Of a DNA stretch of 39,860 nt, positions 7,745-11,030 are shown one piece after another. The notes below the pieces were generated by a model. That model was not told where the DNA came from and searched no databases. It saw only the letters and a program-made list of their open reading frames with translations. The position numbers and the translations under genes are program-made. The DNA lies in contig PLOR01000029.1 in the NCBI GenBank assembly GCA_003142185.1, positions 113,738 through 153,597 of the forward strand, written 5' to 3'. This DNA is from Bryobacterales bacterium (GTDB taxonomy: Bacteria; Acidobacteriota; Terriglobia; Bryobacterales; Bryobacteraceae). Numbering within the stretch: the stretch's first letter is position 1; each line of letters starts with the position of its first letter.

Positions 7745-7750
7745 TAGAAT
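7745..7750 (+). promoter_or_regulatory. candidate -10 element for the 7757 operon
   Basis: TAGAAT matches TATAAT at five of six positions and ends 6 nt before the GTG at 7757. No convincing -35 is seen at the right distance. Transcription would start at about the first base of the start codon, giving a leaderless or nearly leaderless message. The 158-bp gap from 7599 holds nothing else recognisable. Confidence 0.35.
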
Positions 7751-7756
7751 CAGGAT

Positions 7757-8410
7757 GTGGAGAACGTCGCGACGCAATCGCACATACCAGAATCGTATCT
7801 GGAGCATCGGGAGGTGTTCGCGGAGCCTTGGGTAGATCGATGGGTCATTCCAAATCCATTCATCGCTTTACTTTTCGGCGTGCTCCGGACGCACGGAGTA
7901 GAACTCACGGACTTTTCTTTCAACAAAGACGCTACAAGTGTCGGGGAGCACTATCTCAATATTTCGATTCGAAGGCTGAACGCGGCAGTGCGGATCGGGC
8001 TTGACACCGTAACCTTCATCGCCGCAAATCCGGCCTGGGAGATCGCCCCCCAATTGGCGAACATTTTTGATCAGGTCTCTTGCAGCATTCGAGAAACCTT
8101 GAAAACCTCGCCAAGATGGCAAGAGACCACGCTGGCCTTTCACGTGACTCCCGGGGCCGCTGACTTTCGGGCCAATACGGCCCCCCTGGTGAATACGAGT
8201 CTCTTGGGCGAGGCCCTGTTCTACGGAGTTTCCCTCCACCGAGCCGACAGCGTGCTAATCATTGATAAGTCCCTAAGGCATGAAGGCGCCGCATTCGTGC
8301 GCCTTCAGCGTAAGCTGCCCGGAGATGCGCGATTCTCGGATGTTGCTGCACGGATATATGAGGATGAAGTTTCTGCGCTACACTTGCTGGGTATAGCGGG
8401 TGTGCCATGA
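7757..8410 (+). CDS. uncharacterised protein, first gene of a protease/HigA operon
   Basis: I do not recognise this 217-residue protein. It has no signal peptide or membrane segment. It contains repeated beta-rich stretches (for example YLNISIRRLNAAVRIGL and LFYGVSLHRADSVLIIDKS) and a helix with IFDQVSCSIRETLKTSP. The overall impression is a soluble two-lobed alpha/beta protein. The start is a GTG without a usable Shine-Dalgarno sequence. The stop overlaps the next ATG in ATGA, so it is translationally coupled to the DUF5678-like gene. By eye the codon use (ATA, AGA, CTA) and base composition are less GC-biased than in the flanking genes, which suggests acquired DNA. The gene is very likely real, but its function is unknown. 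Confidence 0.7.
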   Translation: MENVATQSHIPESYLEHREVFAEPWVDRWVIPNPFIALLFGVLRTHGVELTDFSFNKDATSVGEHYLNISIRRLNAAVRIGLDTVTFIAANPAWEIAPQLANIFDQVSCSIRETLKTSPRWQETTLAFHVTPGAADFRANTAPLVNTSLLGEALFYGVSLHRADSVLIIDKSLRHEGAAFVRLQRKLPGDARFSDVAARIYEDEVSALHLLGIAGVP

Positions 8411-8931
8411 CGGATGCTCTCCTGGTTTCGGATCAACATGTTAACGAAAGTTTTCTTAGGCCGAAATCTGCTCCTCGGAGCGGCGTCGATCCCTGGCCCC
8501 AAGGTTCGCCAACGGTAGCTTTCGCGGACCCGTCGGCGAGTTTCCTCATTGGGTCCAGAGTCACAGTCTACGCCGAACGAAACCTGCAGGGAATGCGCGA
8601 TCAGTTGACTTGGCGTCACGCCTTGACCGACCGCCAGCCCGATGAAGAGGCCACAGGTATCGACGCTCACTTTCGTCAAGCCCAGCATTCCCTAAACTAC
8701 TTAGCCGGAGTGAACAAACGCGCCCAAGAAGATCGGCAAGTCCAGCAGGAGATGCGGTGGCTGGCCGAGCATAGGCACGAGTACTCGGGAAAGTGGATAG
8801 CCCTAAGGGGCGAACATCTGCTCGCGGCTGGCGCCACGGCGAAGGAAGTGTTCTCAAAAGTCACCAGCCAGGATACGCTCCCCCTTGTAATTAGGGTTGA
8901 CGAAGAAGAGCTACCCTTCGCGGGTTGGTGA
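8407..8931 (+). CDS. DUF5678-like protein
   Basis: The 174-residue product has an unremarkable N-terminal half (about 1-95) with no family I can name. The C-terminal region resembles the small DUF5678 domain: YSGKWIALRGEHLLAAGATA followed by a helix and a strand ending LPLVIRVDEEE. DUF5678 genes are often found directly beside retropepsin-like protease genes in cyanobacteria and Acidobacteriota (recalled, not searched), and that is the case here. The start overlaps the preceding stop by four bases and the end overlaps the protease frame. No catalytic residues are evident. A plausible role is substrate or partner of the protease, but that is inference. Confidence 0.65.
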   Translation: MTDALLVSDQHVNESFLRPKSAPRSGVDPWPQGSPTVAFADPSASFLIGSRVTVYAERNLQGMRDQLTWRHALTDRQPDEEATGIDAHFRQAQHSLNYLAGVNKRAQEDRQVQQEMRWLAEHRHEYSGKWIALRGEHLLAAGATAKEVFSKVTSQDTLPLVIRVDEEELPFAGW

Positions 8932-9343
8932 GCACTTGGCGACTCTCACATTTACGTCAAAGTACAACTACTCGGGTGCGAGCGCAGGGATCGAAGTGCC
9001 TATCAGCCTGAGAGTCGGCGCAGATCGAGCCGTCAGGCTATTTGCGAAAGTGGATACGGGCGCCTCATTTTGCATCTTTCCTCGAGAGTACGCCGAACAG
9101 CTCGGTCTTTATGTCGAGGGCGGGCATCATCAAGTCGTAGCTACCGCTGCGGGGCAGTTCGATGCATACGGTCACACGGTTACCTTATGCTGCTTCGATT
9201 GGGAGTTTGAGGCGATGGTGTATTTTGCCGCGCCACCAGATTTCCCCCGGAGTGTTGTAGGCCGCATCGGATGGCTCCAGCATTTTCGCTTGGGTCTCAT
9301 CGATCACGACACGGCTCTGTTCCTGAGCCATCACGACGATTGA
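8897..9343 (+). CDS. retropepsin-like aspartic protease
   Basis: The 148-residue protein carries the aspartic-protease signature VDTGASFCIFP at about residues 52-62, preceded by a strand (VRLFAKVDTG). Downstream are a Gly-containing flap region and, near the C-terminus, VVGRIGWLQHFRLGLIDHD, equivalent to the hydrophobic-hydrophobic-Gly segment of retropepsins. Single-domain bacterial members act as homodimers with one Asp from each chain. There is no signal peptide, so it is cytoplasmic. The start is uncertain: the TTG at 8897 gives a 35-bp overlap with the previous gene, and a TTG at 8936 would shorten the product by 13 residues. It lies 8 bp upstream of a HigA-type gene and is probably co-transcribed with it. 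Confidence 0.8.
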   Translation: MTKKSYPSRVGEHLATLTFTSKYNYSGASAGIEVPISLRVGADRAVRLFAKVDTGASFCIFPREYAEQLGLYVEGGHHQVVATAAGQFDAYGHTVTLCCFDWEFEAMVYFAAPPDFPRSVVGRIGWLQHFRLGLIDHDTALFLSHHDD

Positions 9344-9351
9344 GCGAATCT

Positions 9352-9654
9352 ATGGCGCAGAGAAAGAAACTGTCGCCCATCCATCCAGGCGAGCTGCTCC
9401 GCGACGAACTCAACGAGATTGGCGTCAGCCTGAACGAGTTGGGGCGCGCGCTCAGGGTTCCCATGAACCGCATCAGCGCTATCGTCAACGGAAAAAGGGC
9501 CATCACCGTCGACACTGCGATGCGCCTGGCGCGCTACTTCGGCACTTCGCCGCAGTATTGGCTGAATCTACAGACCGCCTACGATCTTGAGATCGCCGCC
9601 CAGGAGATCCGCTCGAAGATCGACAGGGAAGTCCTCCCGCGAAACGCAGCCTGA
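9352..9654 (+). CDS. higA: HigA-family antitoxin / XRE-type regulator, no adjacent toxin
   Basis: The 100-residue protein is a typical HigA/VapI-type helix-turn-helix antitoxin. It opens with LSPIHPGELLRDELNEIG, continues with the HTH (SLNELGRALRVPMNRISAIVNGKRAIT) and then DTAMRLARYFGTSPQYWLNLQ. The ATG at 9352 begins this conserved pattern; longer in-frame starts run into the protease gene. HigA normally follows a small RelE-like HigB toxin, yet the gene immediately upstream is the aspartic protease, 8 bp away, and no RelE-like frame is visible nearby. It may be an orphan antitoxin, or the regulator of the 7757-9654 operon. The family assignment is confident. Confidence 0.9.
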   Translation: MAQRKKLSPIHPGELLRDELNEIGVSLNELGRALRVPMNRISAIVNGKRAITVDTAMRLARYFGTSPQYWLNLQTAYDLEIAAQEIRSKIDREVLPRNAA

Positions 9655-9737
9655 ACCACTCGCCAGAATGGTCTGCAAGTTATTGATTCTAGACTCGCGT
9701 ACCCGGGCTGACGGTTGTCTTAAAACCCCGTTCGGCC

Positions 9738-9767
9738 TTGACATTCCACCTTGCTCAGATGTACATT
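9738..9767 (+). promoter_or_regulatory. promoter of the Phd/YefM-type gene
   Basis: A perfect -35 TTGACA (9738-9743) is followed after 18 bp by TACATT (9762-9767). An AGGAG Shine-Dalgarno sequence (9774-9778) precedes the GTG at 9788 by 9 nt. The elements are well placed relative to one another. Confidence 0.65.
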
Positions 9768-9774
9768 TGGTACA
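9760..9774. promoter_or_regulatory. candidate autoregulatory operator (TGTAC-N5-GTACA)
   Basis: A perfect 5-bp inverted repeat, TGTAC and GTACA with a 5-bp spacer, overlaps the -10 element of the Phd-type gene. Phd/YefM antitoxins typically repress their own promoters by binding short palindromes at this position, so this is the expected operator (inference). Confidence 0.5.
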
Positions 9775-9787
9775 GGAGATTGGGACC

Positions 9788-10042
9788 GTGCCCGCTGTCA
9801 GCACTGTTGTAGCCCGCAACGAGTTTTCCACCGTTCTCAACCGAGCCGCGTTCGGCAAAGAGCGGGTCATTCTGGCGCGCCGCGGCAAAGCCATTGCCGC
9901 TATCGTGCCCATGGATGATGTGAGGTTGCTGCGAGCACTGGAAGACCGCGCCGACCTGGCCGATGCCATCGCGGCTGAGCGCGAAGCTCTGGAAAATGGC
10001 ACCACCTCTCTGGCCGACCTCAAACACGACCTGGCGCCGTAA
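9788..10042 (+). CDS. Phd/YefM-family antitoxin, no adjacent toxin
   Basis: From the GTG at 9788 the protein is 84 residues, with AGGAG 9 nt upstream deciding the start. The N-terminal half has the Phd/YefM fold: ARNEFSTVLNRAAFGKERVIL followed by RRGKAIAAIVPMDDVRLL. The C-terminal region is helical and charged (LADAIAAEREALENG), as expected for a toxin-wrapping tail. In classical loci the toxin (Doc, YoeB, VapC or RelE type) follows at once. Here the stop is 26 bp from the convergent stop of another antitoxin-type gene, so no downstream toxin exists. It has its own promoter and a palindromic operator at 9738-9774. It is either an orphan antitoxin or works with a distant toxin. Confidence 0.85.
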   Translation: MPAVSTVVARNEFSTVLNRAAFGKERVILARRGKAIAAIVPMDDVRLLRALEDRADLADAIAAEREALENGTTSLADLKHDLAP

Positions 10043-10068: not shown

Positions 10069-10371
10069 TTATGCCGCTTCAGTCCGCGGCCGCACCGCGT
10101 GCTCGATATCCTTCAGCTTCGTCTGGCGCGCCACGCGCAGCTCGTAATGGATCTGGAGCTTCAGCCAGAATTCGGGCGTGGTGCCGAGATATCGCGCCAG
10201 GCGCAGCGCCGTGTCGGCAGTGATCCCGCGCCGGCCACGCACAATTTCGTTCAGACGGGCGGCATCCACCGCCAGCGCCTTGGAGAGCTGGTTGACGCTC
10301 ATGTTCAGCGGCTTGAGCACGTCTTCCCGAAGGATTTCTCCCGGGTGAATCGGCGCGAGCATTTTTGGCAT
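10069..10371 (-). CDS. higA: HigA-family antitoxin / XRE-type regulator at the end of the exosortase unit
   Basis: The 100-residue protein has the pattern APIHPGEILREDVLKPLNMS, an HTH containing LSKALAVDAARLNEIVRGRRG, and DTALRLARYLGTTPEFWLKLQ, clearly HigA/VapI family. The ATG at 10371 has GGAGAGAG directly upstream, which supports this start over longer frames. It lies 11 bp after the epsI stop on the same strand, so it is probably the last cistron of the exosortase operon. No HigB toxin is present on either side. It resembles the HigA at 9352 in its domain pattern but differs in many residues, so this is not a recent duplication. Confidence 0.88.
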   Translation of the reverse strand: MPKMLAPIHPGEILREDVLKPLNMSVNQLSKALAVDAARLNEIVRGRRGITADTALRLARYLGTTPEFWLKLQIHYELRVARQTKLKDIEHAVRPRTEAA

Positions 10372-10382
10372 AGCTCTCTCCA

Positions 10383-11030
10383 CTACGGCAATTCTCTCCG
10401 CAACTCCGGATACACCATGCGCGCGAAATCCGCGGCGGCGTCCGTCGCAACCTTGTCTTGGCCGTTGAACGATGGAACCACGATTCGCACCAGGGCGACA
10501 TCCGTGCGGTGGTCGCGCAGCGCGTCCACCAGAATCCACGACTTGGCTTCCCATTCCCCGGCGATGGTGCGGCGCGGAGTCTGGTACCAATACAACACTG
10601 CCGAACGAAACCCGCCCTTGCTAACGATGTACTGAGTCGCGGCCAACTGCCCGGCCGGCGTCTCGATGCGGACCGTGCTGGTCGATTCCGGCAACCAACC
10701 CGCACCCGGCAGGCATACCCGAGGCGAATGCGGCTGTCGATCCCCTTTGGTCTGCGAATTGAACCAGGCGACCAACAGCTCGGCTTGCACGACAGGCCCG
10801 GCGGAAGTTCCTGAGTAATACATGCGGTCCAGAAGCCGGTCCGCGCGAAGCTGGGCTTGCACCTCCGGCTCGATCGAAATCTCGCTCAATTGGCTCCAAC
10901 GGCCGATCTGGCGCGGGAACGCGTTCAGGTCCGGGGCAACGGGCACCCGTTCCGCATGACCGGCCCATTGAACCGTGAGCGCTTCGGCCACCAGCAACAC
11001 GGGAACGAGAATCTTGAGTGGATCACGCAT
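10383..11030 (-). CDS. epsI: EpsI domain protein (exosortase-associated, DUF3485)
   Basis: The 215-residue protein starts with a single signal-anchor helix (about residues 5-22). The rest is an EpsI domain, recognised by HSPRVCLPGAGW near residue 100, the region before it (AELLVAWFNSQ), and the later SAVLYWYQTP motif. EpsI proteins accompany exosortases in Gram-negative bacteria that sort PEP-CTERM proteins and export exopolysaccharide, and can be fused to the exosortase C-terminus. Here it is separate and overlaps the exosortase gene by 8 bp. It presumably faces the periplasm and assists the sorting enzyme; its biochemical role is not established. Confidence 0.88.
   Translation of the reverse strand: MRDPLKILVPVLLVAEALTVQWAGHAERVPVAPDLNAFPRQIGRWSQLSEISIEPEVQAQLRADRLLDRMYYSGTSAGPVVQAELLVAWFNSQTKGDRQPHSPRVCLPGAGWLPESTSTVRIETPAGQLAATQYIVSKGGFRSAVLYWYQTPRRTIAGEWEAKSWILVDALRDHRTDVALVRIVVPSFNGQDKVATDAAADFARMVYPELRRELP

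Follow-up and report, generated by a model that had tools for sequence, protein, structure and literature searches.

We analyzed a 39,860-nucleotide stretch of contig PLOR01000029.1 (positions 113,738 to 153,597) from a Bryobacterales bacterium (assembly GCA_003142185.1), hereafter the window, which lies on contig 51 of a 5.8-Mb genome (G000). Three consecutive forward-strand genes at 7757–9343 probably constitute a tripartite toxin–antitoxin-like module in which a retropepsin effector is held by a DUF5678 partner. The first gene (7757–8410) starts with GTG and encodes P1, a 217-aa third-component protein. The second (8407–8931) encodes the 174-aa P2, in the putative antitoxin slot, whose DUF5678 domain (residues 124–162; 8776–8892) matched Pfam PF18929 above the cut-off (E = 3e-5; 24.2 bits versus 23.2). 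The third (8936–9343), in the putative toxin slot, encodes a single-domain retropepsin-like aspartic protease that matched Asp_protease_2 above the cut-off (E = 8.7e-6). It carries the sequence signature of retropepsins (clan AA), with both motifs inside one short domain: the Asp of the catalytic DTGA (9053–9064) and the Gly of the second motif, VVGR (9254–9265), were invariant in a 27-row alignment. A HigA antitoxin gene follows (9352–9654, forward strand; TIGR02607, E = 7e-29).

The initial annotation had treated all four open reading frames (ORFs) as one operon, overlapping or 8 bp apart. The ORFs, their strand and coordinates, and their labels were confirmed, P1 being indeed unrecognizable in Pfam and NCBIfam. 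P1 and P2 overlap by 4 bp (ATGA), and 8 bp separate the protease stop codon (9341–9343) from the HigA start; the proposed overlap between P2 and the protease depends on the start codon, since TTG at 8897 would give a 35-bp overlap and TTG at 8936 would begin 4 bp after the P2 stop. We favor 8936 as the probable start because aligned relatives read METLTF (L094) and METLNF (L103) there.

The suggestion that the codon use of the patch looks foreign held for three of the four genes. The GC content at third codon positions (GC3) was 0.61, 0.62, and 0.60 for P1, P2, and the protease, with a codon adaptation-like index of 0.42–0.45. Ten host genes used for comparison gave a GC3 of 0.75–0.83 and an index of 0.57–0.76; nine of these served to train the index, which favors those nine, and the tenth scored 0.57. 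HigA was host-like (GC3, 0.80; index, 0.59), as was a second HigA gene outside the ten (0.78 and 0.64; see below). GC content was 0.55–0.58 in the sub-windows inside 7750–9750. Taken together, 7757–9343 probably represents a cassette of horizontal origin.

Conservation of the DUF5678–retropepsin pair

A scan of named records with a profile built from seven proteases yielded 95 relatives, of which the best 80 loci were kept; several loci come from one genome, and they are not independent. A DUF5678 ORF was located directly upstream of the protease on the same strand in 80 of these 80 loci, that is, it ended at most 150 bp from the protease start or overlapped the protease. Of the 87 ORFs that matched the protease, with fragments counted, 84 had DUF5678 upstream; the other three were downstream pieces of split genes in two loci (L088 and L115) and a second protease ORF in L071, 156 bp before which a DUF5678-like ORF was seen by eye. 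Our own DUF5678 profile was made from these partners, but PF18929, which is independent of these data, also matched 82 of the 84. Of 30 loci taken from a first search with the window protease as query, including that of the window, 25 had a P2-similar ORF (phmmer) directly upstream of the protease. Among the other five, L024 contained DUF5678, detected by Pfam, inside a 485-aa ORF, and L016 (the same place as L136) a frameshifted DUF5678 remnant; a degenerate copy (L018) and two distant loci (L020 and L022) gave no DUF5678 match in the phmmer and Pfam tests.

As a control, 30 loci were taken from 65 PF13650 matches in eight genomes. All four that belonged to this retropepsin subfamily had DUF5678, whereas it was found at none of the 26 others (18 genes, mostly long two-domain proteins, only three being short single-domain ones). 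Thus, the type II toxin–antitoxin trait of two small adjacent co-directional genes kept as a pair was seen at 80/80 loci versus 0/26 controls. At L174 (1160–1800), a short control retropepsin is overlapped upstream by a different 86-aa ORF in the partner position.

Searching from the DUF5678 side gave 31 matches in 13 of 199 genomes; after removal of one without a locus, one sub-threshold match, and one duplicate, 28 distinct ORFs over the cut-off remained. A retropepsin stood next to 20 of them (18 by profile; those in L132 and L151 by a sub-threshold Pfam match and motif). At L154 (1444–2186), the DUF5678 gene instead overlaps a Fic/Doc gene (E = 2.2e-15), where it appears by sequence to take the Phd position beside a known toxin. 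These results establish DUF5678 and the retropepsin as a conserved pair. Two kinds of ORF were seen ahead of it: at L047, L048, L049, and L056, a PIN-like ORF (VapC-type, by motif only) lies just upstream of the DUF5678 gene, and at L032 the ORF upstream of the pair (226–1152) presumably resembles CRISPR Cas7, going by its motif.

Relatives of the window protease were 35–50% identical across most of their length (62% in L114). The top solved-structure match of the family profile was the retropepsin-like ApRick protease, although it was not significant (E = 0.066). Among the 82 retropepsin ORFs that reached 100 aa, 72 retained the DTG[AS] motif. In first-round scans, the proteins of the window itself had returned no matches, which indicates only that close relatives are rare. 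The search with the window protease gave relatives in 17 of 297 genomes of the phylum and up to 8 matches per genome, so the family is sporadic and multi-copy; 79 of the 80 named records bear acidobacterial names, which would place the window in the Acidobacteriota, and one is labeled a Gammaproteobacteria metagenome-assembled genome (L092). The pair is frameshifted, split, or degenerate at L016, L018, L029/L035, and L088, as expected for a dispensable multi-copy module.

In the AlphaFold2 model of P2, residues 1 to about 80 were mostly of low confidence, followed by a helix (82–122) and a β-β-α-β DUF5678 domain; a block with a predicted local distance difference test (pLDDT) score of at least 90 spanned residues 91–170. 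The model gave no significant structural match (best E = 2.3). DUF5678 forms the C-terminal part of the partners, and their N-termini vary. Among the first ten partners, the N-terminus was AF2212-like in L010 (E = 8.9e-11) and RelB-like in L030 (6.4e-11), both above curated cut-offs, and resembled a FitA-like ribbon-helix-helix domain in L031 (1.6e-4, below cut-off). Across all 84 partners, at E ≤ 0.01, Pfam identified AF2212-like (six), RelB-like (one), and FitA-like ribbon-helix-helix (one) domains, and NCBIfam identified RelB (three), ParD (two), two VapB models (two each), and BrnA (one); scattered unrelated families also appeared, once or twice each. AF2212 proteins have been predicted to be antitoxins of PIN toxins (PMC2701414). 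The P2 tail is ELPFAGW. It is tempting to regard the conserved GGW tail of the P2 relatives as a protease-blocking peptide, but we leave this as speculation because 25 of the 63 pattern-matching tails among the 84 partners carry Shine–Dalgarno-like codons.

P1 and the modules it heads

Pfam and NCBIfam gave no match to P1 up to E = 1, and its assignment to a recognizable family was rejected. AlphaFold2, run with five sequences, modeled P1 as a two-repeat α/β fold of TBP-like topology (pLDDT, 82.8; predicted TM-score, 0.80; the other four P1 models of the same run had pLDDT values of 62–70). The model resembled TBP, the AdoMetDC prozyme, and phosphagen kinases (best Foldseek E = 2e-4, with TM-scores below 0.4 in the ten best matches), and the structural matches to phosphagen kinases and TBP reached Z scores of at most 8.9, near background. 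This modeled likeness seems too weak for inferring a function.

By profile, P1 relatives lay directly upstream of DUF5678 in six of the 80 protease loci (L114, L069, L103, L094, L058, and L095). All three are present in L114, the closest relative found (64, 43, and 62% identity). L078 may hold a more remote P1, judged by eye.

The P1 profile found nine of 299 genomes of the class and nine of 396 of the phylum, three of them shared, giving 15 genomes together. In 15 of 15, P1 heads a three-gene module that continues with a second gene and ends in an effector-like one. This last gene encodes a PIN protein in four genomes (G121, G311, G131, and G242; Pfam E = 3.8e-9, 1.1e-9, 6.6e-5, and 1.5e-8, all above cut-off), a retropepsin in four (G000, G635, G616, and G285), and a HEPN-like protein in seven (G308, G477, G353, G405, G408, G435, and G275). 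A contig end cuts P1 in G405 and G408, and the middle gene of G405 is split over two frames. The two best solved structures for the HEPN-like proteins were HEPN-type chains (UPF0332 being of the HEPN type), at non-significant E values (0.27 and 0.57). In a profile alignment, these proteins were collinear with ten HEPNs from related genomes (E = 0.0023 in hhalign, with a probability of only 12.8%), compared with E values of 0.44–0.63 for three unrelated controls. The P1–X–HEPN-like modules (L119–L124 and L259) have an unrecognized middle protein of 162–218 aa where intact. Together, these results identify P1 as a third component that is rarer than the DUF5678–retropepsin pair.

HigA and the surrounding genes

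HigA had been annotated as a member of the operon, but its membership was rejected on the basis of its neighborhood, codon use, and relatives. No ORF similar to the window HigA (phmmer, E ≤ 1e-3) was found in the DNA flanking any of the 80 loci, which extended to at most 5 kb on either side of the protease. Relatives of HigA that are 85–92% identical, in G591, G598, G574, and G332, have a HigB-type ORF 10–15 bases upstream (short in G591); that of G598 (L250), the only one of the four scanned by Pfam, is a HigB-like toxin (E = 7e-12). No retropepsin of this kind was present near these four relatives within the stretches read. In the window, no HigB lies directly upstream of HigA, and the retropepsin is there instead. 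DNA similarity to the four loci (L249–L252) begins at 9347–9352, just behind the protease stop, suggesting that the cassette now occupies the place of HigB. The window HigA therefore appears to be an orphan HigBA antitoxin, its four closest relatives read all sitting behind a HigB-type gene. The survey of co-occurrence of all four families, set beforehand as the test of the proposed operon, thus failed to recover a four-gene unit and recovered the three-gene P1–DUF5678–protease arrangement.

In the congener G583, the same gene precedes the cassette site (91% identity) and is followed by other genes, with no cassette within the 8.3 kb read, the remainder of that genome not having been searched. 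The next ORFs there (L245 1238–3177, reverse strand) encode a 235-aa protein and one whose M78/ImmA-like domain matched at E = 1.4e-4 and whose start looks Xre-like by eye, and the site is a possible insertion site for such modules. The window also contains a Phd/YefM antitoxin ORF (9587–10042, forward strand; PF02604, E = 3e-8, residues 76–137) without a recognized adjacent toxin, and a second HigA-type antitoxin gene (10072–10590, reverse strand; TIGR02607, E = 1.5e-32), which lies behind an EpsI-like gene and next to which we saw no HigB. The site thus carries several apparently orphan antitoxins.

Interpretation and relation to known systems

Behind P1, PIN, HEPN-like, and retropepsin genes exchange with one another, and DUF5678 stands beside either a retropepsin or, once, Fic/Doc. 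These arrangements suggest an effector role for the retropepsin and partner-specific inhibition by DUF5678, with the protease in what by sequence looks like the toxin slot and DUF5678 in the antitoxin slot. The small protease, having a single domain, would need to dimerize for activity, and the DUF5678 domain of P2 would act as its cognate inhibitor, holding it in a complex made by co-translation. P1 could be an accessory protein acting on P2 as a chaperone or regulator, perhaps by way of the long unstructured N-terminus of P2. Loss of P2 or titration of P1, upon stress, phage infection, or cassette loss, would then free the protease to cleave cellular or viral proteins. Tentatively, and with somewhat less than even confidence, we also consider that P1 may define a so far undescribed superfamily of tripartite modules for abortive infection or addiction. 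In these, P1 would drive exchangeable antitoxin–toxin pairs, the retropepsin would have been recruited as a true toxin beside PIN and HEPN ribonucleases, and DUF5678 would be its dedicated inhibitor.

Several observations weigh against the toxin–antitoxin-like interpretation. Eight of the 28 DUF5678 ORFs lack a retropepsin, one having Fic/Doc and seven neither, and the P1 profile matched at only six of the 80 protease loci. The remotest P1 members are weak; in G285, P1 matched at E = 3.2e-4, the protease reads DTA, and DUF5678 is sub-threshold. HEPN matches were sub-threshold and limited to three of the seven proteins (Pfam E = 0.055, 0.019, and 0.076), with no HEPN model matching the remaining four. 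In most of the 84 partners, window P2 included, Pfam and NCBIfam recognized no antitoxin domain, and several of the matches obtained fall below curated cut-offs; moreover, the GGW tail may partly be an embedded ribosome-binding site. DTG[AS] is missing from ten of the 82 protease ORFs (four have DPG, and DCG, DTA, DTV, DTGG, and DRG also occur), so some relatives may be inactive. Finally, no protease or DUF5678 copy was detected in the plasmid, phage, and viral collections searched with these two kinds of query (P1 was not searched there), and carriage by phages or plasmids was discarded.

Among other explanations, a regulatory protease is the one that we take most seriously, though we think it unlikely. 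Upon a signal, the retropepsin would cleave its DUF5678 partner or some other repressor in an ImmA-like manner, freeing transcription or a distant effector, with DUF5678 as the substrate. There is precedent in the Zn-protease COG2856, which is found with Xre regulators and RelE/PIN toxins and for which the authors of that work favored repressor cleavage (PMC2701414). Some partner N-termini are of DNA-binding types, and the conserved DUF5678 C-terminal tail, where 62 of the 84 partners have a W among the final four residues, could be a cleavage site. Yet no downstream gene that the protease could control recurs widely (in 43 of 83 cases a co-directional ORF follows at no more than 60 bp, but by eye these ORFs are of varied kinds), and behind P1 the PIN and HEPN-like genes occupy exactly the position of the protease. 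That exchange, together with the DUF5678–Fic/Doc pair, also argues against housekeeping proteolysis, in which an intracellular peptidase that takes no part in growth control or defense would have DUF5678 as its pro-segment or adaptor. Such a role would fit the 74 of 80 loci that consist of a two-gene DUF5678–protease unit without a recognized P1, but it agrees poorly with the sporadic spread, the up to 8 matches per genome, and the foreign codon use, and we regard it as improbable. Least credible by far is a module of four genes in which the protease, DUF5678, P1, and HigA act together. HigA starts 8 bp past the protease stop, making read-through transcription likely; nevertheless, this idea is largely refuted by the neighborhood survey (0/80 loci), by the host-like codon use of HigA, and by its relatives, which follow a HigB-type ORF and whose similarity begins only at 9347–9352. 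The initial annotation had singled out an undescribed cassette with a protease tied to its neighbors, and this idea was upheld by the presence of DUF5678 upstream at 80/80 loci and the recurrence of P1–DUF5678–protease, except for the part given to HigA; the function in stress or defense that was suggested for it may apply.

The toxin–antitoxin-like module that we favor resembles the type II systems VapBC, ParDE, RelBE, and Phd/Doc in its small overlapping or adjacent genes with the antitoxin-slot gene first, in the modular DNA-binding-type N-termini of some antitoxin-slot proteins, and in its sporadic, multi-copy occurrence. It differs in that the effector is a predicted aspartic protease, which the partner would inhibit. 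To our knowledge, no protease is established as a type II toxin. The closest working parallel may be the toxin–antitoxin–SecB-like chaperone (TAC) systems, in which several toxin–antitoxin families share one type of chaperone and an added segment is present on the antitoxin (PMC5105189 and PMC6377645). By analogy, both have, within one operon, a third protein that recurs with several unrelated families of toxin and antitoxin, and an antitoxin with an extra variable segment. Unlike in TAC, P1 is encoded by the first gene of the module and P2 carries its extra segment at the N-terminus; P1 has no Pfam family, and SecB was absent from the structural matches shown, which excludes nothing. The COG2856/ImmA-type Zn protease with its Xre regulator likewise pairs a protease with an antitoxin-like DNA-binding protein, but the protease class and partner are different, and repressor cleavage is the favored role of the COG2856 protease (PMC2701414).

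In PADLOC, the window protease matched PDC-M52B weakly and partially (E = 7e-4). The L127 protease also matched PDC-M52B (2.4e-9) and the L174 protease PDC-M08B (1.6e-12), whereas some proteases (L015 and L132) matched neither; none of the scanned DUF5678 partners, P2 included, matched a PDC model. PDC-M presumably denotes a multi-gene phage-defense candidate, and retropepsins of this kind therefore seem to have been flagged earlier as defense candidates. Judged by titles and the beginnings of abstracts, none of the papers listed from the open-licence PubMed Central literature described the DUF5678–retropepsin pairing, and no paper on PDC-M52 was found there; the cassette is apparently undescribed.

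The toxins of known toxin–antitoxin systems are mostly ribonucleases, gyrase poisons, kinases, or nucleotide-transfer enzymes. If the retropepsin is indeed a toxin, it would extend these mechanisms to the cleavage of host or phage proteins. DUF5678 and an orphan class of bacterial retropepsins would then gain a function, and a third component would prove reusable across unrelated toxin families.

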